From assembly GCA_016647705.1 (NCBI GenBank), contig CM028334.1, positions 6,915,546-6,979,545 of the forward strand: a stretch of DNA of 64,000 nt, in the 5' to 3' direction. The first letter of the stretch is position 1. Every line of letters starts with the position of its first letter. A model generated the notes under the pieces. It had not been told where the DNA came from. It searched no databases and worked only from the letters and a program-made list of their open reading frames with translations. Source of the stretch: Eucommia ulmoides. Its lineage: Eukaryota; Streptophyta; Magnoliopsida; Garryales; Eucommiaceae. Positions 2,967 through 52,292 of the stretch are shown in pieces. A program made the position numbers and the translations under genes.

Positions 2967-3482
2967 TATTTTCTGAACAATATTGAGTTGTTCGTTAGGA
3001 TCATTTTGCAGTTTTTAGAAGCACTTTTCCCTATTATTTCAGGTTGCAAACTGAAACCAACTGAAAACCGAACCAACTAGCTTGGTCCCTTTTTTTTTCA
3101 TGTTTGAACCAAACCGATCGGTCTCGGTGCACAAGACCAGCGAACCGAGACCATCCGTATGAATTTTTAGGGGGATTCGAATCAAACCGAGCACATTTAT
3201 CAAGCACTCTACTAAAGATATTCAATCAACTCATCAGTTGCTTCTCAATCACCAATGGATAAAAGGGAAATATTACATGCTGAATTAGTTAGTTGTGACT
3301 AATCTTATGTACTCAAACTATAACCTAACTTACTTCAGTTAACGAATTTTTCCATGCCTAAAAGGCAAAAAAACCATGAAAATTCAGTGCTAAAAAAAAT
3401 CATGTTTCTAAGCCTTCCTCAGATCAACACAAATTTAGACAAAAAAAAAAATTGCTCTAAATTACCTGAATCATAGTCCGAA
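2967..3482. other. Intergenic, convergent gene ends
   Basis: Non-coding AT-rich sequence between the MITE and the stop codon of the minus-strand membrane-protein gene; the latter's 3' UTR should lie here. No other feature seen. Confidence 0.5.
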
Positions 3483-13999: not shown

Positions 14000-14640
14000 G
14001 TTGGGGCTTGATCCATTTTCTATCACTCTAAACGATCCTCTAAACAGATACTTGTTCACCATGAGTATCGTCATGAGTCTCTTTTTTATCACTCTAAACG
14101 GACAATTGTTCGTCATGAGTATCATCATGAGTTAATTTTTTATTACTCTAAACGGATAATTGTTCGTCATGAGTTAATTTTTTATTACTCTAAACGATCC
14201 TCTAAACGGACATTTGTTCGTCATGAGTATCTTCATGAGTCTTTCTTTCATTACTCTAAACGATCCTCTAAAACGGACATTTGTTTGTCATGAGTATCGT
14301 CATGAGTCTTTCTTTCATTACTCTAAAAGATTCTCTAAACGGACATTTGATCGTCATGAGTATTGTTATGAGTCATTTTTTTTATTACTCTAAACGATCC
14401 TCTAAACGGATACTTGTTCTTCATGAGTATCGTTATGAGTATTTCTTTCATTATTCTAAACGATCCTCTAAATAGACATTTGTTCGTTATAAGTATCGTC
14501 ATGAGTCTTTTTTTTAATTACTCTAAACAATCCATTAAACGAACATTTGTTCGTCATGAATATCGTCATGAGTCATTTTTTTAATTACTCTAAATGATCC
14601 TTTAAACGGACACTCGTTCGTCATGAGTAATTTTATTTTA
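14000..14640 (+). repeat. Tandem array, about 65-bp unit, 9-10 copies
   Basis: Units contain CTCTAAACGATCCTCTAAAC, GGACATTTGTTCGTCATGAG and ATCGTCATGAGT, separated by T-rich stretches. The units differ by small changes and by shortened versions. It sits between the coding remnant and the 3' LTR, the position where Tat/Ogre elements often carry variable tandem repeats. Confidence 0.9.
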
Positions 14641-25405: not shown

Positions 25406-28400
25406 TCAATCTCTTTCTTTCCTTTTCCTGCTATTCACAGTCTTAATCTCTAACAAAATATCACCCAAAACCCAAGGGAAACCCAAACACCCAACACTCC
25501 CACTACAATAATCAGGATGATAAGTCACACAATACCAAGCTGAAGCCACCTTCCACCGCTCCTCCACTGCCGGCCCACAACCACCCTCGAACCACCCTCT
25601 CGCCTCCCTGTGCAAGCTCTTCACCGACACCAATATCCGATCCTTCAACTCCCCATACCTCCGATTATCTCTCTGCAAATATGCCGACTTGTTCCGCAAA
25701 TTCCCCGTCAAAATCTCATCTTCCCTCTCTGCCTCGTAATAACTCATCAAATAACTCATCCTCTCCCAATACATTTCCTTGTGATTTTTCGCGATTTCGA
25801 TACACGACTCGTACCCCTCGACTTCCATATCGCGGTCGTAGGCCCATTTTAGTGTTTCTTCGGACCATACATGGTTTGACTTTTTGTTAGCACTGGAGTT
25901 GATTGTGACGCGGTGGAGTTTTCCTAGTACACCTTGGGAGACATACGAAGGTCGGTCCCACCGTTCCATGAAATCGGGAAACTCTCTCGGTTTTAGAACC
26001 CTTGGCATCTCTGCCGGAGCTCCGGTCTTGGCAAAATCGACTGCCATCGAGTGGAGGTTTGCCAGCTGAAGGCATTTTGGGCTTAGGGCTTTCTCGGGCT
26101 CGCGGTCCGCGTTGATTAGATGTGCAGTGGAGATCGTTCCTAGGGTGTCGTTGATCATGTACTCCACGAAGAATTTTTGAATTTCCTGAATTTTAGAGAA
26201 ATAAATATGGGGGATTGAAAGAGGGTTTTGAATAATAGGATAAATTATTAAATTATCCTTTAATAAATTGTTAAATTGTTTTATTTTTAAAAATACTTTT
26301 TTAAAATGCAAAAAACATTACTTTTAAAAATATGTAATCTTTTCGTTTAAATAAAAAAAAAAAAAAACAATTACCAAATGGTGCCGAAGTTGGTCTAAAA
26401 ACAGGACAAAAACTTAAAAAAATAAAAAATGAAGGGAATATATATAAGATTATATAAAAAAACAAAAAAGAGAGAAGAAAAAAAAAGGGGGTCACCTCTA
26501 ATGAAACATCATGATCCATTAGCCTGGGCCTTCGGCCGGTGTAATCCATGGGGGTAACAGTTTGGGGTGGCCGGAGATTTTCATCCCAGCTGATGAAATA
26601 TAAGTCTCCGTCCAGATCACCGCCAGAGCATTCATTAGGGTGAGGCCTGTGGAGTCAAAAACATAACCACATTCAAGCATGAACTTTATAAAAACTCTAC
26701 TCAGGTCGATTTTTCCTTTAAAAGACCAATTAATGTGAAGGGTTTTAACGTGGCGTTCGGTTATTGTTTTTGTTCCTCTTTTTTCAGATTCTAAAAAGCA
26801 CTGGAACAGAATAACGAAGAAAAACAGAAACAAAAGAACATATTGCCCATTTTTGTTTAGGGTTTATTGTTTATGTTTAGGATTTTCTTTTTTGGTTTAG
26901 GGTTTAGTGTTTATGTTTTTCTTTTTTTCGTTTCAACCAACAGGGAACAGAACCAGAACATAAAAATCGGTTTATGTTCCGTTTCTCTGATTTTTTAAAC
27001 AACTTCCTGGCAACAGGATACAATTGTCCCCACATTGCTGTTTCTGTTTCAAGTTTTTTTTTGGAACGGAAACACAATTATGGGAACAAAAACACTAACC
27101 AAACACGACCTATGAGAACTAATTTCAACTTCAAGAAATTACACATTGGGTATGCGCAGAATTCATAAATTAAGACTAACTCATACCTCTCTCCTCTCTG
27201 AGGGAAAACTAGGCAATCCACCAAACCCTTCTCCTCCAAACCAACCTCGTACACAGCGTCAAGAACCCTAATATCTCCTGGGTGAAGGCACGGATTTTTC
27301 GTAACCACGACTTTCCCAATCACCACACACGTTTTCTCGTCCACCTTCTGGAAGAAACTCTGCTCGCCGCATCTAATCTCCGCCTTCGTCATCGTCATCC
27401 GAACATAAACCTGCCCGTATTCCAAAATTCCGGTTTCGTCCAAACAACCCATCAGAATCCGACCCTTGGGTACCAAAATCCGACACCTCGTTCTTATATC
27501 GGATAAAAGATTTTCCCGGTGAGATTCTAGCATCATCGAGAGATATGGCTCGACATTTGGCTCGTACCCTTGAAGAAGCATTTTTACCAGAATGCCCTTG
27601 ATCTCACCCCCGCCCATGTTCTCAAGAATGGAGATTGCTTGTTCCCGACACGTTCGCATCTTGTCGAGAATCTCGAGTTGGTCTCGTTGCAATGACTCGA
27701 AAGCTTCGTCTTTAACTCCCAAAGTTGATAGAAGGGTAATGATCTCACGGTTCAAGTAGCACGACAAAGATTGGCTCCAACTTGTGACGTTGAGCATTCG
27801 GTTTTTGGATTCGAATTTGAGCATGCTACCACGTAGGGAAAGCTTCCGGAAGGAGTTTCGATCGACGGCAATCACACCTTTGTACCCACCATACCGGACC
27901 TGAAACGCCGATGGAACGTGATCCAATCTGCACTTCTCAGCGACTGTCTTTGCGAAAGATGCTGATATTTTTCCGATCCCGTCTGAAAAACAATACCCGA
28001 CGCCATCAGAAGTCGTCTCGATGTCGGGAATAACCTCGACCTCGAGCGGAGAGACTTCCATTGTTTGCGTAGAGGAGCTAAACAATTGCCCCATTCTCGC
28101 CGCACACTTTGAAACACTCCGAATTTTATCGAAACAACCCATCCATTTTCGGATATCTTCGGCGGAGATTTTCTCATTCGACGCAAACATCCAAACGGAA
28201 TTCGAACGGAGTTGACTCGCAGAGAACGAAAGAAATTCAAAATGTTTCGATCCAATCACGATCCCATCTCGAAGAACGGAGAGAATCCGACGGTGTATAT
28301 TCGTCCGATACGGTTTTGAGAAGAAACCCCGTTCGATGCTCGCGGAAATAGCGGTAGCTGAAAGCTTTCCCCAATCTTCTTCCACGAAGGTTACTCTCAT

Positions 28401-30577
28401 GAAGTCAGAGGCGTACGGAGCGAAATTCTTGACGACATAATTCGAGGATTCGAGCTCGGGACCTAGGCAATAGATCTTCGAGGGTGTAACTAGGGCTCGA
28501 TGTACGTGCATCACATTATAGTTTCTCGACTTCTCACAAGAGGGTGAAGGGAGTTTCTTACACTTTTCCCAATGAAAATGCAATCGGGTTTTTACAAACG
28601 AGACTGGATCATAACATGTTGAATTCAACTTATGCATTTTCTGAAGAATCATCATCGTGGTGTCTAGATCCGAACCACTAAGCATATCAATCAAATCGTT
28701 GTTTATTGAAGCAAGACTAATTTTATGAGTGTGAACTAGGGAGTTCAGCTGAAAGAGAATCTCGTAAGCTAAATTAGAATCCGGGGGCAAATTTATGAGT
28801 GGAACTAGCGATGATGGAGAAGAAAATTCATTGGATTCTTCCATGGTTAGATCGATCAAATCTTTATTATAATATGGCAAATTTGTAAAAATATCTAGAG
28901 ATGATAATCCATCTCCGATTTCCAAACATAATGCCGATGATTGTCCAATAGATTTCATACCGGAAAAATCGGTTGTTCGAACCCAGAAAAAATCGAAATC
29001 TTCCTTGCAGATATGATATCGGTCGGCGCTGAATTTAGAGGTGATATTGGGCCCAGAAATTTTCTCGAATATCTTTGGGGCATATTTGAGCTGAAAAAAA
29101 AAAACGAAAAAAAAAGAAAAGAAAGAGAGTTAACAGCTCATTTTATTTATTTATTTTGTTTTTTTTCTTCTTACCGTTCCTTTTTCTTTTAATTTCATAC
29201 CTTAAAATCTAGTTTGACAGATTGTAATTAATAGACTTTCTCTTTTCACACACACAGTCATGAATAATGAAATAAGGAAACCTAAAATTATTTTAATAAT
29301 ATTCAACAATCTCAACACAAACTTCTCCCTAATAAATGTTTATAGCATAATCAATCATCAGCCCAAAAATATATAACCAAATAAATGACGAGCACACTGG
29401 CAAACGCGCGCGCGCGCGCACAGACACACACATAATCAAAGCCATTAGTAGTATAATCATGAATATGAATTGTATAATCAAAGCACCTGGTAGTAATAAG
29501 TTCTAGTTCTATTAGGCTATCTAAGATTTTAAGAATAATCTTAAATGACTTGAACAAGTAAAAAGTAAGCCAAGTACCAAGTACCAACATGAGTCAGTCA
29601 CACATGGGGAATGTAATGTGTGTACATATGTAAAACACACTATATAATTCAACAGGATGGGGATAAACTCTTTAGATAAATCCTAGCGTTCTTTGTCTCC
29701 AAAGATAAAGAGCCATCCAGATTGATCCTTTAGACTAACACTGAAGATGGTAGTATTATGAGATTACGGAATAATTGATATTGTTTCATTATCTTTGTTC
29801 ATTCGTTTTATTTTAATTCAAGTTATTGTCTTAATTTTATGCTAAAAATGACGTTGTTTCTCAATTATCTTTGTAATTCTTTACAACTAATATGTTGGTT
29901 ATTTGTTAATGATACGTTCATTTCAAATTAAGTTGTCTTTTTTTTAGTCCGTGCCCGGCACAGGTAATCACCATGAAAAAGTACCAAGCAAAGTAGAAAA
30001 ATTAAGAAGAGGCAAAGAGAAATAGTACCTTCAGAAGAACTGCATTGGGTTCATCATCATCATTATCATCCAAACAACAGCTGCAGGCCTCCAGAATATC
30101 ACTGAATTGCACCTCCAACCTAAAGAGATCGCCGCCGAGAACCACCCAGAACTCAATAGTCCTCCTCTCCGGCGAAACCCATGTCTTAACTCCCTTCCAC
30201 GACTCCAAAACGCACATACAATCCCTCTTCGACAAGAACCCTGTGTACAGAACCCGGCTTTCGACCCGGTTTTGGGGCTCGACGGGTCGGAAGATCACGT
30301 CGTCGAAGGCGGCGGAGATGTAGAGGTAGGAACCCTTGAAGAGGAGTTTCCCTTCCTCAGAGAGGGCGAGGGAGGTTGATTTGGCGGCGAGGGTTTCGAA
30401 TTGGACCCGGCCGAAGCCCTTGGACTTCCAGTTCTTACGCTCCGTGAAAATCTCGCAGGCGAAGACGGAGCCTTCGCCGATGGTGGACTCGAAGAAGTCG
30501 AATAGGTCTTTGGCGACAGCGGTTTTGGGGATGTTTGAGATTCTCACGGTGGCTGTGGGTTTCTCTTCCACCGCCAT
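25406..30577 (-). CDS. RDR1: RNA-dependent RNA polymerase 1 (RDR1-type)
   Basis: Four exons on the minus strand: 30577-30029, 29090-27187, 26646-26496 and 26185-25406. All joins are in phase and give 1127 aa, the usual RDR1 length. The enzyme copies single-stranded RNA into double-stranded RNA for Dicer-like proteins and amplifies antiviral silencing; in other plants it is induced by salicylic acid. An N-terminal RRM-like region (about 10-90, TVRISNIPKT.., FGRVQF) is followed by the RdRp domain (DGVGYCFSDGIGKIS, FQVRYGGYKGV, VDCLVFPQRGERPHPNECSG) with catalytic DLDGD at residues 828-832, then a C-terminal region ending CLGFPWVLGDILLEIKT. The start lies in a strong context (CCACCATGGCGG). No stop or frame change was seen, so the gene looks functional. 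RDR1 paralogues cannot be separated by eye. Confidence 0.96.
29405..29430. repeat. (GC)n/(CA)n microsatellite in RDR1 intron 1
   Basis: CGCGCGCGCGCGCGCA followed by CAGACACACACA, an alternating purine-pyrimidine tract in the 938-bp first intron (29091-30028). Confidence 0.9.
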
Positions 30578-30777: not shown

Positions 30778-30862
30778 GGATCAATCTGTCGGTGTTCCTC
30801 AAAATGACAGCTATTTGTTAAAAACTCCCGAAGCTAAAAGTGACTTTCGTTTTAGTCCCACT

Positions 30863-30872
30863 CAATATAAAA
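30863..30872 (+). promoter_or_regulatory. TATA-like box of the protease gene
   Basis: CAATATAAAAAG, roughly 270 bp upstream of the ATG at 31139, followed by a GC-richer leader. Confidence 0.4.
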
Positions 30873-31379
30873 AGGCGGGATGCCAAATCACACGCGCCCT
30901 GCCAGCGTTCCCGCCATACTACAGACAGCATTCGCCGTCCTACGCGAAAATTCAGAGGTCAGACCATCATAGCGCAGCGTGTTAGACCGCAGGCCGACTT
31001 TCTACGCAACAAATCGTTCCACTAAGACGCAAAACTGTCTCGTCGTCTTCTTCATTTTAGAAACCCTAATAAAACCCACTACACTGAAGAAAATTGTGTT
31101 TTCAAAAAACTCTCGAAAAAATCCTTCTTCCTTAAACAATGTCGAGAACACAGTCTGGCGCCGACTCACCTTCTGCTCCAAAAAGAGGTAAAAACCCGTT
31201 CATTTCTTCACGATTCTACTCTGTTTTTTGAGACTACTAGTACATCTGTCTATTATTACACGATTTAGTAACTATTCAGACTACAATAGTTATATGCACC
31301 TCGAAACATTTTGTGACATGTAACTAGAAACATATATATGTCATTATTGGAACATATAATTGAATATTACCCTTTTCTG

Positions 31380-32700
31380 TACAAATTCCGACTTATATCT
31401 GCGACTTATATCTTTTTTATTTATGAAAATAGTTACTTGTAACTAATATTACAAAAATACGTGTTATTATGCACATGCAAAACGTATTCGTCATATATCA
31501 GAAATATCAAACTTTTTAGTTACATAATATCAGAGACATGTAACTAAAAAGTTACATATTATTAGACATGTCATGTAACTGAATATTACTTTTTTTTGTA
31601 CTACTTCCGACTTATATGCGTGAAAATAGTTGTGTAACTAATATTACTGAAAATATGAACTAAAAAAAGTTACAAGAAAATATCAAATTTTTTAGTTACA
31701 TGATATCAGAGACATGTAACTAAAAAATTACATATTATTAGACATGTAACTGAATTTTTTTTTTTTTTTGTACTACTTCCGACTTATATGTGTGAAAATA
31801 GTTACGTGTAACTAATATTACTGAAAATCTGAACTAAAAAAAGTTACAAGAAAATATCAAACTTTTTAGTTACATGATATCAGAGACATATAACTAAAAG
31901 TTACATATTATTAGACATGTAACTGAATATTACTTTTTTATGTACTACTTCCGACTTATATATATGAAAATAGTTACGTGTAACTAATATTACTGAAAAT
32001 ATAAACTAAAAAAAGTTACAAGAAAATATCAAATTTTTTAGTTACATGATATCAGAGACATGTAACTAAAAAAGTTACATATTATTAGAACATGTAACTG
32101 TATATTACCTTTTTTTGTATTACTTTCGACTTATATGTGTGAATATAGTTACGTGTAACTAATATTACTGAAAATATGAACTAAATTCAATTACAAGAAA
32201 ATATCAAACTTTTAAGTTACATAATATCAGAGACATATAACTAAAAAACTTACATATTATTAGAACATGTAACTGAATATTACCTTTTTTTTGTACTACT
32301 TCCGACTTATACGTGTGAAAATAGTTAGGTGTCACTAATATTACTGAAAATATAAACTAAAAAAAGTTATAAAAAAATATCAAACTTTTTAGTTACATGA
32401 TATCAGAGACATCTAACTAAAAAATTACATATTATTAAAACATGTAATTGTATATTACTTTTTTTTTTGTACTACTTTCGACTTATATGTGTGAAAATAG
32501 TTACGTGTAACTAATATTACTGAAAATATGAACTAAAAACAATTACAAGAAAATATCAAACTTTTAAGTTATATAATATCATAGACATGTAACTAAAAAA
32601 CTTACATATTATTAGAACATGTAACTGAATATTACTTTTTTTTTTGTACTACTTCCGACTTATACGTGTGAAAATAGTTACGTGTCACTAATATTACTAA
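31380..32700 (+). repeat. Tandem array, about 175-bp unit, 7-8 copies, in protease intron 1
   Basis: Copies of GTGTAACTAATATTAC start near 31439, 31634, 31808, 31980, 32154, 32331, 32507 and 32684, a period of about 172-177 bp. Each unit holds a tight dyad TAGTTAC-NN-GTAACTA and a wider dyad (TTTAGTTACATG and CATGTAACTAAA, about 10 bp apart). Divergence between units is modest. Confidence 0.93.
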
Positions 32701-33904
32701 AAATATCTATCATAATGAACATGTAACTAAAAATATTTGTAATATTTATCATATCTATATATTAAAGTATAGTAACTAAAAAAAGACATCAAAAAAAAGT
32801 TTTAAAATTTTATTTATGAGCTACTAATTTTTAGTAACTAAATGTACTTTGTAATAAAATACAACTAACTTATATTGTTATAGATCCAAGAAAAGGAAAA
32901 ACACCGGTAAGTGAAGAAGAAGAGGTAGAAAATGTTCTTTCCTTGACTCCAAGTCAAGAAAAAAAGTGGTACCATCAGTTCAGATCATCATTGAATCAGA
33001 TGATAGATCTTTTGACCGAACTAAACCTTAGAGACGACCACAAGGAATGTTTAGCCAAAACACCTTTTTGGCAAACATTTAGAGACCTAATTGAGAAAGA
33101 TGTCACTCCGCAACAGTGTAAAAAAAATGATCACCTAATTCTAGACATCATTTCTCGATATAATCCTTATAAAAATGCATTCAAAATTGCTGGAAAGTAC
33201 CTCAGGTTGAAGCCCTATGATGTACGGCTCATATTTGGGATTAGGTCTAGAATAGAAGTGATCAATTGTAACTACGGGACGCAAGTGTCATCAAATTTTG
33301 TAATAAAAAACAGACTGGAAGGTGTACCGAAATTTACAGTCCGCATGATCAAAGAGATGGCAAAAAACAAAGTAACGGGTACAACATTACTTAAGGTTAG
33401 TGATGTTGTCCGCCTACTATGCATGCATTTGTTTGCAACTTGTTTTTATGCAAACAAGGGACAATTTATTCCCTATGGCTTGGTCAAGTATGTGGATGAC
33501 ATTGACAAGATGATGACATACGATTGGGCTGAGTCGATACATGAAAATATGATGGTGTCTATTCGGTCAGACTACAGTAATCCTGTAGCGGTAAAAGGAT
33601 GTGTCTTTGTTCTCCCAGTAAGTACATATTCTAACAAAAAAATCCTTAAATTGTCAAGTTGCTAAAAATATTATTGTATTCTGACATAAAATGCAATCTT
33701 TGTTGAAAACAAATGCAGTATTGGTTGTGCGAGCATACGACAATACAAAAACCAATTTCGGGAAGACTGAGAGCAATTCCACGTTTCACAAAATGGGATC
33801 TAAATAGATTAAACAAGAAGTTAAGGAAATTGGGATTGCTCTATGTGACACCAAATCAGGTACCAGATCTCTGTTTTTTCTCATATTTCTTGCAAAAAAA
33901 TACT

Positions 33905-34270
33905 AAAAAAAATGTAAAGTAGAAAGAGTCAAAACATGTATACAATTACTACAAAAAGAACTAGACACATGTAACTAAAAAATTTGAGAAAATGTAACTA
34001 AAAAAACTAGGAGAAAATTGGTGAAATATCTCATGTTTAAATTCTAATTATTGGAACATGTAACTGAAAAAAATATAAAACTTTTTAGTTACATATCATA
34101 TATGTGTAATTAAAAAGTTATATATTATTGCATATGTATCTGGAAAAAAAAATTAGTTACTTGTAACTAATAAAAGTAGTTACCTGTAATTCATGTATAC
34201 GATTACTAGACATGTAACTAAATATATATAAATTATTAGAGACATGTAACTAAAACACTTATATTTATGA
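33905..34270 (+). repeat. Motif-rich intron 3 of the protease gene
   Basis: Many scattered copies of ATGTAACTAAA and its reverse complement, including a tight dyad TAGTTACTTGTAACTA near 34155, without strict periodicity. Confidence 0.8.
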
Positions 34271-36593
34271 TTACAGGTTTTGTCGATTGAGGTATCTGAG
34301 AAACTGGGTGAAATTCAATAAGGAATTTGCAAACCAGTAGAGAGAAAGACAGCAGAATATGATTTAGATATTGCAATAATAGAAGAGCGTAGTGCAAAGA
34401 AAAAAGCAACTGATGATACTTATATTGGAAAAACAAGGAGAAAATTAAGGAAATCGGTTCATCTGCCAGATATACCCAGTTTTGATTTGGGGATTTCTGA
34501 ATCTGACACTAGAGCCCCAAGGGTAGATCAAGAGAAAGAACAACTGAAGGAAAGAATCCTGCGTCTGACAGAACAGAATCAGGAGCTGAAAATGCAATGT
34601 GCCCAATCTGCTGAAAGGATTGAGGAATTGAATGGAGTTATTGAGGTGTTTACTGAAAAACAAGAGAAGTTAAAGAAAGAGATAATGGAGTTGAGTGTGC
34701 AGCTTATCACTCAGCAATATCGTATTGAGCATTTATTGAGAGAGCAGATCCAAGACCTTGATTGCTACTACAAACAGTTGGTGGCAAGAAAAGATGAAGA
34801 AATTGAGAGTTTGAAAGATCAACTTGCTGGACTTGATGGCAGAGAACCAAATGTAAAGGTGAAAGAGTCCTTTGACGATGAAGAATCATACATGCCAACA
34901 ACACATTTGGGTGCAACTTGTGACTTCAGACACAGTCCAACAGAGGAATAATTTGAGCAGAAATTAAATATTCAGGACATAATGACAAGAGACGTCACGC
35001 TACAAATGGAAGAGGTAGTTAGGCTGTCTGCTGATTCGATTGATGATGGAAAAAGACAGCTTATTCAAGAAGAAAGTGCTGCTGTTAAGCCTTCACACCA
35101 TAAACAGAAAGTCAAATCGAAAGCCAAAAAAATTGGTGACCCAAACTCTCTCATTAAACGAATCAAATCAAGATCACGGAAGCAGAAGGCACATGAAGAA
35201 GAATATGTGTATAATAATCCTGTGAAAAGAATGAAGACAAGAAAAGATGATGAAGAGAGAGTGGATGAACCCATGGAGGTGGAAAGTTATGCAGTCCCTG
35301 ATGAAGATCCCACAAAAATGCCATTAAAGCGGAAGAGTTCTGTTGCGCCGTTCTTGGATGACGAGGACTGGACACTCATGAAGACCATTTATGATCTTGA
35401 ACAATCAGGGTACTAATTTACATCTAACATACATTTTTTTTTTTACCAACTACATGTACTAAATACAGAAAAATATGAAATTCTGCAGGTGTTTTGTGTT
35501 TGGAGGTGAAGGAGTAGAAGCACAAGTGTCGTTGCGTGATTTGTTTGGAATGCATGTCGAAACAGAAGTTTCAAATTTTGTAAGTTTCTATAATGTCTCT
35601 AAATTCTAAATTTATAATGTTACTCATATATAACGTATAATTTTTTTTTACTATTTTTGTAGATTATAAATGGATATGCTGAAGTTCTAATGAATAAGTA
35701 AGAACAAAAGATTACGGAGCTTAGTCTAACGCAACAGATTTTGTTGAGCAAATCATTCTTCACAATCAGCTTAGTATGGGTAATTTTGTATATTATTATA
35801 AATTTATTATATTTTAGCAAAAAATATCTAACATTTGATAAAAAAAAAATTGCAGAAAATGATGAATGACAATTCAACAAAATACCTCGAAGATTATTTC
35901 TATCCACAGTTGGTACAAGCTTTAAACGAGGACTATAGATACATCCATTTCCCAATGAATTCTCCAGGACGAAGTACGATAGAGAACCATTGAACATTAC
36001 TCGTTTTGGATACGCATGAGAATACATGGAGATTCTATAATTCGTTGCAGCCTAAAACTGGAAAACAAGAGGTCGACTACTATTTCAAAGATGCAAGGAA
36101 ATTGGTATGTTAATAACATGGAAGCAATACACATTTGTTTAATTATTATTATTTTTTTTTATATATATTTCATATATGTTTGTTTTTTTTAGAAATTGTT
36201 TGTTGAAACATTTATTAAGAAACATCGAAACCAGGATGCATCAGACCCCAAGTCTGAATCTAGGATGACATATGTCAAGAACACTCCACAACAGCACCCC
36301 GGCAGGTTTAAAAAAAAAATTATTTTATCTGTATGCTAGTCTTCTTAATTTGATAACACTAATTTTTTTTTAAAAAAAAATACAGCAAAGATTGTGGAGT
36401 TTTTATGATGTACTTCATGAAACAAATAGCACTAGGGAAGGAAATTGATCCAGATTTCACAAGAGATGAGATCAGAAAAGAGAGGGCATTAGTCATTGAA
36501 TCTCTGTTGCATCATCCAACAAAATCTTGGATAATGAATGACTATTTGGCAAAAACATTAGCAGCAAAACTGGATCAACAAGCCGTACGCTAA

Positions 36594-38045
36594 TTATTTT
36601 GAACAAAAATCGTTTCATGTGTGTAATGTTTTTTGATGATTTGTTTTCATGCAATTTTTGCTATCAAATTTCATTTTGCAACTATCGTATTCCAGATGCA
36701 TGTCTGTCCAACGATTTTCGTAGTAATATATTTGATATTTTTTGGTTTCTAGACAATTATAGTAATCTAGTTACATGTTACTAAACGATTTACATTTATT
36801 ATACTACTTAAATAAAACAAAAGTAAATAACAAATAGTTACGAAGAACTAGAATCAATATCGTTTAGTCGCACCTATGTTTTATTAAAAATAAATAAGTA
36901 ATTTAAATAAAAACTAGTTATAAGTAACTAGAATCCCCTAATTATCATTACTTCTAGTTACATGTATCTGCACTTTTTTTTTTAAAAAAAATATAAAAAT
37001 AAATACTTATTATATATTTAAAAAGTGAAATGTGAAAAAAGACACTAAAAACATAGGCATTCGACATCACTACAAAAACCAATATATTTATTATATATTT
37101 ATAAAAATATATAAATCTCTTTATACTTATATATTTTAATAATTTAAAAATAAAAAAATTATTTAAAATAGAATACGTGTCCTTAGTATCCCTATATTTT
37201 GTAACTAACAATTGGATTATTAAATTCTTTTAGCAATATATTTGTTAATTAAAAAACTAAATTTTAATACAAAACACTTTACCTAGTTACATGTACCTAG
37301 AATATAGAACTAAAAAATTAAATTTAGTTACATGTACCTAAAAACACCATGCCTCATCGCTAGTACATTTTAAAAAAGTGAAATGTGAAAAGACTAATCA
37401 CACCATGCGTCATCACTGTAAAACCGACGTGATGGACTCTTAAATGCACTGCAATACTAAAAAAAACCTCTTCATATTTATATATTAAAAAAAAATTAAA
37501 CAAACACGTGTCCCTAGTTACAAGTAACTAAAAATAAAAGAACACTAAAAGTTAATTAAAAAATAAATTTAAAATAAAATATAATAATTAAACGTAATAA
37601 TTACTTCTATAATTTAGTACTATTAAACCACTATACCTAGTTACATGTACCTAAAAATCTTGAACTATAATTAAATCTAGTTACATGCAACCATAAATAA
37701 ACTTTCAATATATTCCAAAATAAAAATAAATAAAATGGTAAAAAATAATAAAACAAATGATTTAAATAAAAATTAATTTAAATTTAAAAATTACTCCTAT
37801 TAATAATTTAATAATTCCAAAAAAGAATAATTTAACAATAATATACTCACATGTAAAAATAAAAAAAAAACAAAAAAAAAAAATACTATGTCTAGTTACA
37901 TGTACCTAGAATGTGTAAACTGCATAGATTCTAATTATATGTAATCATGATAAACGTATTTATTATATACGAAACGACGTGATGGATGTTGTATGCAAAA
38001 AAATGATTCGTATGCTCCATATAATCGTTGTTCTATCTAAAAAAA
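36594..38045. repeat. AT-rich MULE spacer with TAGTTACATGTACCTA motifs
   Basis: No gene. The dyad-like phrase CTAGTTACATGTACCTA or a near form occurs at about 36770, 36955, 37282, 37322, 37640, 37677 and 37890; CTAGTTACAAGTAACTA at about 37506. Spacing is irregular. Confidence 0.8.
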
Positions 38046-38051
38046 TTTGAC

Positions 38052-38058
38052 TATAAAT
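38052..38058 (+). promoter_or_regulatory. TATA box of the small coiled-coil ORF
   Basis: TATAAAT, 62 bp upstream of the ATG at 38120, giving a plausible short leader. Confidence 0.6.
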
Positions 38059-38119
38059 ACGAAATCGCCGTCGTTCGTGTTCATATCTTCTGCACAAAAA
38101 ACTCCCAGAGCAAAAACAA

Positions 38120-38443
38120 ATGGAAAGCAAGTTTGAGACTTCCATCAAGACATGTTTATCAAAGTGCAACCATTTCATGAAAACGATAGAACAACTAATG
38201 TGGAAACTGGGCGCAACTTAGACAAGTTATCGGTGGATGAGACAAGAGAGAGATCAAGCAATAAAAGCGGCAGAAGATATGCGATGGAAATTGGGTGCAG
38301 CGCAGTCAGAATGCCGACGGATGAAGGATGAACGAGATGAAGCACGACGACAAGAACGGTGGAACGAGATAGAGACCAAACTCCTCAAAGATGATGTCGA
38401 CTTTTACAAGAACGTTCTCGCAAGACAAATCGCAAACAAGTAA
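38120..38443 (+). pseudogene. Small coiled-coil ORF of the MULE, one in-frame stop
   Basis: From ATG at 38120 (MESKFETSIKTCLSKCNH) one frame runs 107 codons to 38443, interrupted by one TAG at 38219-38221. The part after it (38237 onward: MRQERDQAIKAAEDMRWKLG, RRMKDERDEARRQERW) is highly charged with heptad-like spacing, so a coiled coil. The phrase MWKLGA/RWKLGAAQ occurs on both sides of the stop, suggesting an internal repeat. It has its own TATA box and is not part of the other two genes. No known family was recognised; it could be a dimerising accessory protein of the element. Confidence 0.55.
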
Positions 38444-38755
38444 TACCACATCTCTTTTTTGTCTTTTCAAAAGTTTTTATATGTATTTTGTTCAGTGAAA
38501 AAGCCTACTTTTGTATATGTCTATGAATGTTTTTTTGTTATATATATTTTGAATTTTTGTACTGTAACCACATATGCCTAAAAAATCTAAAAAAAATTGT
38601 TGCATGTTAAACAATGCACAACAATCGCAGATTTCAGTGACATGTAACTAAAACTTATTTCAATTAAAATTGAAAAGAACTGAAAAAATCAAGTAACGCT
38701 TTCTAAAAAATCAGAAACTAAAAAAGAATAAAAAAAATGTAAAAACATTCTTCAA

Positions 38756-41303
38756 CTAAAGCGCAAGTTTGCACATTTTCCTATTGTGTCTACCTATTCG
38801 ACCACACTTACGCTCCTTCACCTCACCCCTTGAAGGGATTCTTTGCTTTTTCGGTCGTCCAGGTTGCCTTCTTGATAAAGGTGGCAATATGACAGGCTCT
38901 GTCTATTCAAAAATAGGTCTTTCTATTGTTGGCACTAGGTATATGCTTTTCGAATAACTCTCACGATAGAAACTACAGTGAAAGTAGTCTTCCACAAAAC
39001 CATATACCAACGAGCATGTTCTCATAATTGCTGCACATGCATGCGAACACAGGAAGGAATTCAATTACCATAATTGACACGAACATTTTCTTTTATTTAG
39101 GTTAACATAAACAGAAGGGTGGCAGTGCACTTCATAGACTCATTCTGCGCCCTCGCTAACCAACCATGTTCGACATTCACTTATATGCCGTGACAATTTT
39201 GCATCCCAATGAGGACATATAATTCCACTTAAGCGTAATGAATCATTCCTCCGTTGAGACATTTGTTCCATTAATGAAATCCTTATCTTGTCAACCATCA
39301 TAATAATTGCCATATGCTTGTAATTCCTAATCCATGCATTAAAAGACTCAGCCAAATTTGAGGACATCTCCCCATACCTTGTGCCTCGAAAAAAACGCTT
39401 GACTATATCTTTCTTTTGGCAACTCTTCCATAAACTTCTCCACCCGTGCTCCCCCCCCTTGAACAATCATGTCATCATATGCAACATGGTATAATTCTGG
39501 GGTAACTGCATAAGCACACTCAGATAATTTGGCAACAAAAAATTCCTTTGTTTTGGTAGTCTATCCACTCAATGCAGCTTTCAAGTTCATTTTGAGATGG
39601 TGTAAACAAAATGCATGATAACAATGTGGAAATACATTTCAGACTCCTTAAATAATGCCGTTGTGCCGATCAGAAATGAATGTTATGACATGTTCCGGAG
39701 GTAATATAACAGACAATTGTGTCAAAAACCAGAACCAATTATCATCATTTTCAGCATCAACAATGGCATATGCAAGTGGAAACATACCTAAACAAATGAA
39801 AAAAAATAAAAAAAAATAACAGTAAAAAAGCAAAATTTTTATAAATGTATACAAAAACGAAAAAAAAAAACATCATGAAAAATATATAAAAATTAGATAA
39901 GAATAAAGAAGAAAAAGTATAATGTGCTTAAAATGGTATCAAAAACTTATATTGTATTTTGTTAACAAATAAAAAAATATTTAAATAAATTATTGACATA
40001 TCACTAATATTACATCTTAAAAATGTAATATAAACTGTGACATGTTATAAAGTGGATACATGTCACTAATTTTACAAATGACTCTAATTTAAGTGACATG
40101 TAACTAAAAAATGATTTAAAATTAAAAAATTTAAAACTTACTTATATGTAACAGAAATGTGTTAATTTAAGTACCTTGATTGCCGTCCTTACCACAAGCA
40201 GCAAGAAGAACTCCTTTGTATCTACCAGTAAAAAATGTCCCATCCAGAAATAACATTGGGCGTATAAACTGAAATCCATGAATACACCCATGGAAAGCAA
40301 CAAAAAAACGCTTAAATCTATTGGTGTCGCCTTCATACTCCAACAACATGTAACTGTTGGGATTTGTTCTATTGCATGCTTCTACATACCATCTCAATTG
40401 ATTGTATGCAGATATATGAACCCCAAAAAGGCTATCCCTCGCCTTTTCAACTCCAAGCCAAGCATGATTGTATGTAATCTCAAGACCATAACTTTTCTTA
40501 AACTAATGAAGAATATCAATAGGACGTGTTTCAGGTTTATCCTTGACAGTTTCCAACAAACAACTAGCAACAACATTAGAACTCATCCTCTTGTTTTTCA
40601 TAGTTCTATATGCTGCACCACATGTATGTTCATTTAGCAACTCCTTTATCTTAAAAAATCCATTTAAGGTATCAGTACGCGCATGTACAAACCACTTGCA
40701 ATCTCTTGTATCTCTAAATGAACAATATGCAGTGATACGGACTTTATCATTTTTCTTGTACTTGTAACTAAATCCAATTTCAATAGAATACTTCCTTAAG
40801 ACAGTATGAAATTCTTTCGCCCCACCTTTAAAACACAGCCCCACACAATTAATACCTTTTGCCCACTCCGAAGATTGCAAGTACTTCTTCTCATGACTCC
40901 AAGAATAAGGCAACATATCATCATCATCATCATCATCATAAACACATAGACTTGATTCCCCTGATCCACTAGGACTACTATCTGCTACATTACTTGAACC
41001 CCCACAAGATGTAGCACTAAAAACATGTCCAGGGATTATAGAATTGCTCTTTATTACAACTTCCACAAAATCAATACTAAATGATCTAATCAACACAATT
41101 ATACCATTATAGTCATCTTGATCACATACCATACAGTTTGGATGACCAGACAGAGAATAATGCATATTAAAAGAGATTGATGACAAGCTATTCCATCGAT
41201 AGACAACCTTTTCCGCGAAACTAACAAAATTCATCTCACTATCAATTTTCACAATTCCACTGTAATCCTCGTATTTGCACAAAGCAATCACCAAGTTTGA
41301 CAT
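38756..41303 (-). pseudogene. MULE transposase (MuDR-type), decayed
   Basis: On the minus strand from ATG 41303 (MSNLVIALCKYEDYSGIVKI). Order: N-terminal MuDR domain; an acidic patch (DDDDDDD); a zinc-ribbon-like DNA-binding region (FRDTRDCKWFVHARTD, LNEHTCGAAY); the DDE-type core (FLDGTFFTGRYKGVLLAACG; exon join 40175/39787 in phase; [30 protein letters not shown]); FFRGTRYGEMSSNLAESFN; then a SWIM zinc finger (KRKCSCQLW .. CSHACAA near 39040) and an AT-hook-like RRQPGRPKKQR tail ending at 38756. Several in-frame stops and a frame slip at a G-run near 39455 mark it as dead. It is convergent with the protease gene and small ORF. Confidence 0.88.
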
Positions 41304-41339
41304 TTTATATCTAAATGCAGATATTGCTACAAAAAAAAC

Positions 41340-41605
41340 CACAGAATTACAAAAAATGTAACTAAACTTACTCTAAAACTGGTAGAATGTAACAACTTTT
41401 GAACTAAACTCATAACATAAAAAACAGAACAAAAAACAACACACAATTAAAAATGTAACTAAAAAAGTTACACTAAAACTAGTAGCATGTAACTAAATTT
41501 GCACTAAAAAGTTTATAAGGTCAGAACACATATCACACAATTAGTATGTAAACTAAAAGCTTACACTAAAACTGGTAGAATGTAACTAATTTTTCACTAA
41601 AAAAA
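41340..41605 (-). repeat. Second motif array, upstream of the transposase start
   Basis: Three degenerate units of about 97 bp, each with CTAAAACTGGTAGAATGTAAC or a close form plus ATGTAACTAAA. They lie in the probable 5' UTR intron between a leader (TATA-like CTATATATAG at 42021) and the ATG at 41303. Confidence 0.75.
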
Positions 41606-42020
41606 TCCAACTAAAGATTCGAACACGTACTCTAAAAAATCCAGCAACAAGGATCAAAACACATCAACGAAGGTCAAAATCTGTCGCGTTTATCAAACTT
41701 ATATATCACCTTATTAAAACGATTTCGTCCTATATGCAAAAAGACTTAAAGATTCGAAAATAAATCAATCAGATACTTTGCGAAAAAATACAGTCAATTC
41801 ATATCCTAAAAAGATCAAGATCTAACCAAATTTGCGTCATAAAAACCAACGATCAATGAACAAATCACTAAAAAACAGTGCAAAACGATATATGGTACTT
41901 ACATTTGATTCGCTGATCATTAGTCGACCTCCTAAATCAATAGAATCCGAGATCTGCAAAACCCTAGCTTGCCGACGAACAAAATCACCGAAAATAGAAG
42001 GCAAAACTCTGAAACTGAAA

Positions 42021-42030
42021 CTATATATAG
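42021..42030 (-). promoter_or_regulatory. TATA box of the MULE transposase
   Basis: CTATATATAG, reading the same on both strands. Downstream on the minus strand is a leader with a donor site (AAT|GTAAGT at 41902) and an acceptor near 41330. Confidence 0.5.
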
Positions 42031-42229
42031 GCGCGAATTCAAACTACAACGACTAACGATCTCAAAGAATTGCCCTATATGCTTCAAGAACCATACGTGA
42101 GCACGCGCGGGACTAAAATAAGGGAGAAAAACAGATTTAGGGGCTAATTCTAAACCTAATCATAAAAAAAGACTAATCGCGGATTAGACCATACAATTAG
42201 GACTAATTGTCAATTTTCCCTAGAAAGAA

Positions 42230-50322: not shown

Positions 50323-52292
50323 GAGTTGTTTACGTTTATAATATAAATTTAAAACAAAATTATTGAAATAGACCACTTTTCAACTTATATACGGAAATAG
50401 TGCTACCCGGGGTTCCGAACCCCGGGTATACGATTTTTTTTTTGGTATACGCCATTATACCAAACCCCGGGTATAACCCGAATAAAAAAAAAAAAAAAAA
50501 AAAAATCGTTTTTGCCCAAGAAATTTTTAAAATTTTCGGCAACTTTAAACTGATTAATGGTGGTCTATCGATATTTTAAATAAATCTAATTTTTTTGTGC
50601 ATAAATTAGGTTCAAAACACTACATAATGCTTTTTACAACACTAAAAACGGACAAGTGGATGAATTTTAAAAAATCGTCAAAGTTGATTAGATGAGTAGT
50701 TTCGATAATGGTGGAATTTTTTTCGGCAATTTAGAATTAACAAAAGATTGCATGTTGGTAACAGAAATGAACCAAATTTTTTGTATATAAACTATGTTTA
50801 TAACACTACATAACAAAACTTAAAACACTAAAAACGGACAAGTGGATGAATTTTAAATAATCGTCAAAGTTGATCAGACGAGTTGTTTCGATGATGATGC
50901 AGTTTTTTTGAAAACTTTGAGTTAATAAAAAATGGTCGTCTATCCGTAACAGAAATGATCTTGATCTTTTTGTATCGAAATTATGTTCATAACGCTAAAT
51001 AATAAAATCGAGAATACTAAAAACGGATTAGTGAATAATTTTTAAATAATGGTTATTATCATAACATTTTATTACTCTTCAACGTTTCAAAAAACACTAT
51101 ATTGCTCTTCAAGGTTTGGATGGACATAACTTTCCGCTCGGTGATCCGTTGGGGGCAATTTTTTTTTTTTTTTAAAGTTGGGTCTGATGTGAGTCATCAC
51201 TCTGACTTTTGAAGATTTCAATTTTATCAACAGAACAAGACACACGTTCGCAACGAAGATTACAAATTTATTCACCTAACACTTCGAATCCAAAATTGAA
51301 GGTGAAAACGGGCTTTATTTGAAAAAATACTAGACCAAACTACCTACGGCGTTTGCAACGCCTAGATCTCGAAAAAATACCTGAAATAAAAAAAAAAAAT
51401 CGCCCCAAACGGACTACCGAGCACAAAATTATGTCTATCCAAATTTTTTCTATTATTTTACGTAAGTTTTATTTTTTCTCGATAACATATTATCCGTTTT
51501 TGGTATTTTCGATTTTATTTTTTAGCGTTATGAACGTAATTTGTATACAAAAAAATTAGGATAATTTCTGTTACGGATAGACGATCATTTTTTGTTAATT
51601 CAAAATTTTCAAAAATATTGCATCATCATCGAAACAACTCGTCTGATCAACTTTGGCGATTATTTAAAATTCATCCACTTGTCCGTTTTTAGTGTTCTAA
51701 GTTTTGTTATGTAGTGTTATGAATATAGTTTATATACAAAAAATTTAGTTCATTTCTGTTACCGACATACAATCTTTTGTTAATTCTAAATTGTCGAAAA
51801 AAATTCCGTCGTTATCGAAACAACTCGTCTGATCAACTTTGACGATTTTTTAAAATATATCCATTTGTCCGTTTTTAGTGTTGTAAAAAGTATTATGTAG
51901 TGTTTTGAACCTAATTTATGCACAAAAAAAATTTAGATTAATTTAAAATATCGATAGACCACCATTAATCAGCTTAAAGTTGCCGAAAATTTAAAAAATT
52001 TCTTAGGCAAAAATTTTTTTTTTTTTTTAAATTTGGGTTATACCTGGGATTTGGTACCCCAGGTTCTATGTAGAACCCGGGGTACCAAACCCCGGGTATA
52101 ACGGCGTATACCAAAAAAAAAAATTTTTTTTTTTTTTTTCGTATACCCGGGGTTCCGAACCCCGGGTATACCGCCGGCCCCACAAACCCGGGGTTCTGAA
52201 CTCCGGGTAGCATTATTTCCGTATATAAGTTGAAAAGTGGTCTATTTCAGTAATTTTGTTTTAAATTTATATTATAAATGTAAACAACTTCT
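50323..52292. mobile_element. Foldback MULE (1970 bp) inside a gypsy LTR
   Basis: A perfect 9-bp target duplication CCAAATGGT (50314-50322, 52293-52301) bounds two arms of about 830-900 bp that are near-perfect inverted repeats: the left GAGTTGTTTACGTTTATAAT pairs with the right (inverted) AGAAGTTGTTTACATTTATA, and pairing continues to about 51160 and 51385. Each arm has a local palindrome (ACCCGGGGTTC..GAACCCCGGGT) and about three tandem units of roughly 180 bp containing CTAAAAACGGACAAGTGGAT. No coding capacity. A nine-base duplication points to Mutator-type transposition. Confidence 0.88.

Follow-up and report, generated by a model that had tools for sequence, protein, structure and literature searches.

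An inverted dyad in the non-coding DNA of a Mutator-like element of Eucommia ulmoides is a candidate docking site for the element's own VANC/Kaonashi-like protein

Introduction

The closest described counterparts of the system analyzed here are the VANDAL families of Mutator-like elements (MULEs) in Arabidopsis. Excerpts of the report on these families (PMC5735166) describe VANC21 as a protein that binds the motif YAGTATTAY in the non-coding parts of VANDAL21, both in vivo and in vitro, with a resulting loss of methylation; the motif, frequently repeated in tandem, is found in the VANC and VANB introns and on the upstream side of VANA. In the same excerpts, VANC6 acts on elements carrying AGTTGTCC/AGTTGTAC, its motif is also present in AT9TSD1, a transposable element unrelated to VANDAL, and both the VANC parts that determine target specificity and the route from binding to anti-silencing are left open. 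Here we analyze a 64,000-nucleotide stretch of the E. ulmoides genome (the window; CM028334.1, positions 6,915,546 to 6,979,545) that contains one complete MULE, and describe an inverted 16-bp dyad, TAGTTAC-NN-GTAACTA, in the non-coding DNA of this element.

Several further reports are relevant to such a system. RNA-directed DNA methylation and VANCs act in opposite ways on the same non-coding regions, as stated in an excerpt of PMC10398659. Kaonashi (KIU) is introduced in excerpts of PMC13317346 as a group of VANC genes carrying Ulp1, which belong to MULEs without terminal inverted repeats (non-TIR MULEs) and for which conservation in eudicots is claimed; these elements are said there to recognize motifs in KIU elements only. 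The plant mobile domain (PMD) proteins MAIN and MAIL1 act in silencing, direct DNA binding being a hypothesis in the excerpted part of PMC7156037. Meeting reports, in the portions available, mention unpublished VANC structures and coevolution, and others may therefore know the dyad system.

Results

Distribution of the half-site and the dyad

The half-site GTAACTA/TAGTTAC occurs 57 times in the window, against 6.4 expected, and 54 of these copies lie inside the element (Table 1). Non-coding DNA outside the tandem array of intron 1 carries 31 half-sites in 4.0 kb, where Markov models of order 1 to 3 predict 1.4 to 3.2; the array contributes a further 21 in 1.3 kb, coding DNA two in 5.4 kb (at 33268 and 40764), and the flanks three in 53.3 kb, i.e., the background level. 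For this classification the element was taken as 31000-41700, and the strips from there to its true ends, counted as flank, hold zero half-sites. An earlier interpretation made from the letters of the window (hereafter, the sequence-only reading) had assigned the motif to non-coding parts exclusively; the non-coding preference stands, with the correction that exons are depleted rather than empty. The excess also survives removal of the array.

Seven exact dyads were found in the window, with the 2-bp gap and the three spacers that had been proposed (TT twice, GT four times, AA once). At up to two mismatches there are 26 dyads against 0.25 expected, and a single one lies beyond the element, at 3286. 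Chance in AT-rich DNA is ruled out by the excess of half-sites and of dyads and by the background level in the flanks. The sequence-only reading had also described an array of about 175 bp in the first intron of a protease gene (the VANC/Kaonashi-like gene in Table 1), as well as copies in later introns and in the intergenic spacer, and all of these were recovered. The wider inverted pair that it had reported exists (three in the window, 48 over the 30 loci considered below) but proved to be the 16-bp spacing within the array unit. Its suggestion that both large genes have an array at the 5' side applies to intron 1 of the VANC-like gene, whereas the transposase side has four half-sites (41358-41582) in an imperfect short duplication.

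The dyad as the conserved unit

Outside the array, 20 of the 33 half-sites are paired across a 2-bp gap with a second half that has no more than two mismatches, against an expectation of about one; the 33 include both halves of each full dyad. The spacer is AT at 20 of these 33 half-sites, and a full site with AT is a perfect 16-bp palindrome. For the 17 non-array dyad-like sites, mean flank identity is 35% (maximum 57.5%), random pairs of non-coding stretches giving 32%. Identity of the core is 0.81, a value biased by the similarity-based choice of the sites. Since the flanks are nearly unrelated, the sites do not stem from duplication of a single stretch. The claim that selection rather than tandem growth maintains the pattern thus holds in part: the dyad is the conserved unit and the non-array sites are not mutual copies, but the array is genuine tandem growth.

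All genome-wide counts refer to the 946.7-Mb assembly whose contig C10 contains the window. The exact dyad has 1877 occurrences there, and a reversed-pattern control has 10. Comparison of gap 2 with gaps 3-12 gave 1877 sites for the former and 944 for the latter taken together, a strong preference for the 2-bp spacing. An unbiased scan for 6-mer dyads with gaps of 0-8, with the registers of one dyad pooled, placed one dyad on top of the list in the window element (8 counts) and in two distant relatives, L051 (6) and L052 (5), whereas the top dyad reached at most 2 in 60 shuffles of each of these sequences. These data support the dyad, rather than the half-site, as the conserved unit. Such a pattern is consistent with dyads having accumulated as putative recognition sites, and their two-fold symmetry with binding by a presumed dimer.

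Other copies and short derivatives

The motif accompanies the element throughout its family. At 29 other loci, exon 2 is 87-97% identical to that of the window, and the 1.4-1.5 kb immediately preceding it contain 8 to 27 half-sites. Over 30 loci, including the window (L021), the upstream sequence (44.6 kb) holds 527 half-sites, exon 2 itself (21.9 kb) holds 10, and the downstream sequence (44.8 kb) holds 219. Both dyad number and array content differ between copies.

Nine further loci, L012-L020, were picked by place from the dyad list of contig C1. In eight of them (all but L015), the dyad lies within a mutually similar stretch of up to approximately 0.76 kb; these stretches are too short for the genes and resemble miniature inverted-repeat transposable elements (MITEs). 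At L012, a 9-bp duplication (ATTAATAAA) is present and one end resembles, by eye, an end of the full element; the right end of L019 matches that of the full element at 71%. Thus, short derivatives keep the dyad. Genome totals of the dyad must for the most part follow from the number of element copies, and the sites do not count as independent events.

Different dyads in distant relatives

A genome search with exon 2 yielded at least 153 matches that range from close copies to sequences of 34-40% identity. Each protein search scored 150 out of some 2500 candidates, and the dyad lists give part of the sites, so that counts of dyads near relatives are weak both ways. The proteins of L051 and L052 are 36% and 38-40% identical to the window protein, respectively, and 67% identical to each other. 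In 5 kb of L051, GTAACTA occurs once, whereas AATGTTAC-AT-GTAACATT occurs three times exactly and five times with one mismatch. In 5 kb of L052, GTAACTA is absent, and AATGTGAA-NN-TTCACATT is present in three exact copies and one with a single mismatch, on both sides of the DUF1985-like exon, in stretches that are introns by analogy with the window.

Genome-wide, AATGTTAC-NN-GTAACATT (dyad 2) has 1420 occurrences against 0 for its reversed control, and AATGTGAA-NN-TTCACATT (dyad 3) has 71 against 5; the hybrid of dyad 2 with the window dyad (dyad 1), TAGTTAC-NN-GTAACATT, is found 10 times on both strands together, against 1 for the control. Read outward from the centre, the half-sites are NN-GTAACTA (window), NN-GTAACATT (L051), and NN-TTCACATT (L052), the last two having the outer AC-ATT in common. 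At 18 loci (L005-L020, L051, and L052; at most one mismatch), the words are unmixed except in L018 and L019, where dyad 2 lies 5.2 and 4.5 kb from dyad 1 sites, respectively; array sequence related to that of L051 is also present in L019. Five VANC-like loci on contig C1 are covered by all three dyad lists: three are members of the window family with dyad 1 no farther than 5 kb away, and a fourth, L051, carries dyad 2.

A large DUF1985-like group with many open frames is represented by loci at 63-64% identity to L051 (e.g., C2:5133274, C4:21478802, and C5:56755537); its two 64% members on C1 (26085736 and 41996967) showed no exact dyad 2 in the surrounding 10 kb. A separate observation concerns TAGTTAC/GTAACTA pairs at a spacing of 4 to 7 bp on C1 (e.g., 4882293/4882481, 8879357-8890086, and 13693669-13701498). 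They are often grouped approximately 150-190 bp apart, none lies within 10 kb of the DUF1985-like matches listed, and they are perhaps another family with a wider dyad.

Boundaries, genes, and domains of the element

Homology to two other copies breaks off at both element ends, and all three complete copies are bordered by a perfect 9-bp target-site duplication (TSD), each copy having its own. A long TIR was not found in a by-eye comparison of the ends of the window copy, which share just a few bases. The element encodes (i) a VANC/Kaonashi-like protein with a divergent DUF1985/PMD-like N-terminal part, a coiled coil, and an Ulp1-like C-terminal part, (ii) a small coiled-coil protein, for which a family search gave no match above cut-off, and (iii) a MULE transposase. 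All three genes are broken by in-frame stops in the window copy.

The transposase domain DBD_Tnp_Mut scores above the Pfam cut-off in the window (5.3e-12) and also passes in sister copies, where MULE (44.2 bits, L011) and SWIM (27-29 bits) exceed their cut-offs. Peptidase_C48 (PF02902) reaches 45.7 bits, against a cut-off of 20.7, in the spliced exons of the sister copy L005; in one window exon it reaches 17.9 bits, which is under the cut-off. Exon-2 proteins match DUF1985 weakly (E-values of 0.015 for the window, 6e-4 for L051, 1.3e-3 for L052, and 0.095 for L022), and the L051 protein matches PMD with an E-value of 1.1e-6, under the cut-off. The pN/pS ratio of exon 2 is 0.52 over all pairs of 30 sequences; the protein was therefore constrained during family spread, and exon 2 is, judging from these sequences, under purifying selection.

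Table 1. Features of the Mutator-like element and its dyads, in window coordinates
Feature	Position	Strand	Details
Complete Mutator-like element	30778..42220		11,443 bp; limits from homology ends vs two other copies and TSDs
Left TSD TAGAAAGAA	30769..30777	+	9-bp repeat
Right TSD TAGAAAGAA	42221..42229	+	9-bp repeat
VANC/Kaonashi-like gene	31139..36595 (end approximate)	+	Multi-exon; exon limits by eye
VANC-like gene, intron 1	31188..32883	+	Splice signals by eye and open frames
VANC-like gene, exon 2, DUF1985-like region	32884..33617	+	244 aa, open frame
Small coiled-coil open reading frame (ORF), VANB-like gene position	38120..38443	+	One in-frame stop in window copy
MULE transposase gene (DBD_Tnp_Mut, MULE, SWIM)	38750..41304 (approximate limits)	-	Stops in window copy
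Tandem array, 176-bp units with dyad and further half-sites	31502..32706	+	Period 176, 6.9 copies
Exact dyad, spacer TT	31430..31445		
Exact dyad, spacer GT, in array	31799..31814		
Exact dyad, spacer GT, in array	31971..31986		
Exact dyad, spacer GT, in array	32146..32161		
Exact dyad, spacer GT, in array	32498..32513		
Intron-3 dyad cluster	33962..34252		Exact at 34154; two mismatches at 33962, 34177, 34237
Intergenic-spacer dyad cluster	36768..37908		10 sites with at most two mismatches; exact at 37515
Dyad-like site past small ORF	38635..38650		Two mismatches
Dyad-like site, probable transposase intron	40091..40106		Two mismatches
Four half-sites 5' of probable transposase coding start	41358..41588	+	One dyad-like site at 41480
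Full dyad words by type			Window family TAGTTACATGTAACTA; L051 type AATGTTACATGTAACATT; L052 type AATGTGAATGTTCACATT

Other features of the window lie outside the element. A long minus-strand frame adjoining it (27078-29129) is one that we take, by eye, to be similar to plant RNA-dependent RNA polymerases. Two arrays with a 186-bp period and units that are mutually inverted by eye were observed at 50638-51050 and 51516-51930, and a tandem array of approximately 67-bp units (TCGTCATGAGT...) at 14164-14629.

Discussion

Proposed role of the dyad

We propose that the dyad is probably the docking site of the element's own VANC/Kaonashi-like anti-silencing protein, because its placement, the behavior of its arrays, the gene content of the element, and the family-specific words match the VANDAL/VANC systems. 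We infer that the VANC-like protein binds the dyad, that it does so as a dimer, and that methylation is lost as a result; the DUF1985-like protein would be the likelier binder, judging from known VANC biology. The dyad would then serve as the element's own cis-tag, probably bound by a symmetric dimer whose two monomers would each contact a 7-bp half-site on their side of the 2-bp spacer. With many sites over introns, spacer, and 5' regions, the protein could cover the non-coding parts of all members of its family, whether autonomous or deleted. It would remove DNA methylation there, allowing expression and transposition and leaving the rest of the genome untouched, so that the docking protein would help the element escape host silencing. 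Related families might avoid cross-talk if the half-site changed in step with the protein and the dyad geometry was kept.

A broader scheme is plausible but far from assured. Homodimeric VANC-like readers would use a common frame, NN then K-T-M-A-C, with family-specific ends, and new families would emerge via discrete half-site switches (GTAACTA, GTAACATT, TTCACATT); with hybrids avoided, the genome would harbor several mutually blind, self-addressed anti-silencing systems of tens to thousands of sites each.

Several observations weigh against the docking-site proposal or its extension. At the level of the motif, gaps 3-12 also exceed their control genome-wide (944 vs 173), and the 2-bp spacing is therefore dominant but not exclusive. 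Nucleotide diversity in the intron-3 motif columns is 0.077, against 0.092 in the neighbouring ones, for the 24 of 30 loci with an aligned stretch of at least 450 bp (the six others were dropped), a slight raw difference that lends weak support. The published VANC21 and VANC6 motifs, as described in the excerpted text, are single words, arrayed in the same orientation in the case of VANC21, whereas here the unit is an inverted 16-bp dyad with a 2-bp spacer. At the level of the protein, all four exon-2 proteins that match DUF1985 at all score under the Pfam cut-off, the window protein scores DUF3514 as well as DUF1985, and a piece of L006 gave no family match. Searches of PDB sequences returned no convincing relative, and a structure model of exon 2 alone was useless (mean predicted local confidence, pLDDT, 37).

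The remaining adverse points concern the distant relatives. The dyad-2 array of L051 sits 1.8-2.3 kb upstream of the exon, and element ends were looked for around this locus and none were found. Among the six L051-type loci listed on C1, dyad 2 lies within 10 kb at L051 itself only: it was not found within that distance of C1:21370258 (86% identical to L051) or of C1:26085736, C1:41996967, C1:11241263, and C1:2531992 (60-64%). Conversely, no relative was listed close to several of the dyad-2 clusters on C1 (e.g., 31619633-31624673 and 37120588-37122030). Of 82 relatives on C1-C9, a single one, the locus of its discovery, had dyad 3 at a distance of up to 10 kb, in a check that omitted at least one listed place (C9:33095872) and with a dyad-3 listing that reaches 30.3 Mb on C9. 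The fifth C1 locus covered by all three lists, C1:4647533 (37% identical to the window protein), lacks all three dyads. Since such relatives are without the listed dyads, additional families must have words different from these or lack one altogether. Beyond the window family, the link between protein and dyad comes from one locus for each dyad, and the dyad-2 link is weak.

Alternative explanations

The dyad might instead be required for transposition, as the subterminal repeats of Ac and En/Spm are, and be bound by the transposase or by an accessory protein of the TNPA kind. MuDR-type transposases carry a DNA-binding domain, which is found here, and all genes of the element co-diverge, so that a correlation of protein and motif fails to single out the VANC-like protein. 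In the three complete copies, however, half-sites start 491-524 bp from the left end and stop 632-726 bp from the right one, and their density peaks in intron 1 rather than by the ends. Such motif-free ends make a subterminal transposase site unlikely, and it was rejected; we regard this explanation as a whole as unlikely. Equally improbable is a host transcription factor that binds the dyad, with the element using it as enhancer or promoter sequence. Sites in introns and upstream regions are enhancer-like, and host-factor sites are commonly palindromic; but L051 and L052 reside in the same genome and have other half-sites, the hybrid dyad is nearly absent, and the window flanks are at background. 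A single host factor for all families was rejected as unlikely on the differing words of relatives together with the near-absent hybrid.

A neutral account, by which tandem slippage and the copying of families and MITE-like derivatives explain the counts and the dyad is a passenger, is correct for the intron-1 array and draws on the genome totals, which must largely mirror copy number (e.g., the similar stretches at L012-L020). It conflicts with the non-array sites, whose flanks stand at 0.35 against a background of 0.32, yet whose half-sites are paired far beyond expectation, and with the same dyad geometry in two diverged loci, L051 and L052. Those flanks and that pairing rule out pure tandem growth, and we consider the neutral account very unlikely. 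Action at the RNA level, with the palindromes forming intronic hairpins that affect splicing or small RNA, agrees with the many intronic sites; ten sites, however, are located in the intergenic spacer, and RNA geometry does not let a full hairpin close over a loop of 2 nt, which makes this explanation hardly credible.

Comparison with known systems

Docking of the element's own VANC/Kaonashi-like protein would place the dyad in a kind of system that is known; its discrete palindromic variants look new. A dyad of palindromic form, with discrete half-sites specific to each family, was not found described in the literature covered (Sasaki 2022 is outside this coverage); a literature search on the half-site word gave nothing relevant among the titles listed, and one on VANC and palindromic gave none. 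One genome with diverged VANC-like proteins, and dyads that differ at few positions on a fixed frame, makes a protein-to-half-site code testable. If the proposal is true, discrete symmetric addresses would lend themselves to removing plant DNA methylation in a sequence-directed way.

The En/Spm protein TNPA and the Ac transposase are element proteins that bind many short motif copies near the element ends, and TNPA also counters methylation. Their motifs are near the ends, whereas the ends of this element are motif-free. The resemblance to MAIN/MAIL1, as far as the excerpted source goes, consists in the weak PMD match of L051, so the domain may be related. Kaonashi shares with the present family an Ulp1-like (C48) domain in a VANC-type gene, here above cut-off in L005; the portion of PMC13317346 covered describes no motif of dyad form.

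The strongest likeness is to VANDAL21/Hiun and VANDAL6 of Arabidopsis, as far as the excerpts describe them: (i) a three-gene MULE with a short motif that is dense in introns, intergenic DNA, and upstream regions, (ii) motif arrays that vary between copies, and (iii) related families with different motifs. By eye, the reverse complements of the published VANC motifs in these excerpts, GTAATACTA and GTACAACT, look like GTAACTA. A Mutator-like transposase, a 9-bp TSD, and the lack of a long TIR, by which VANDAL elements are characterized, are all found in the Eucommia element.

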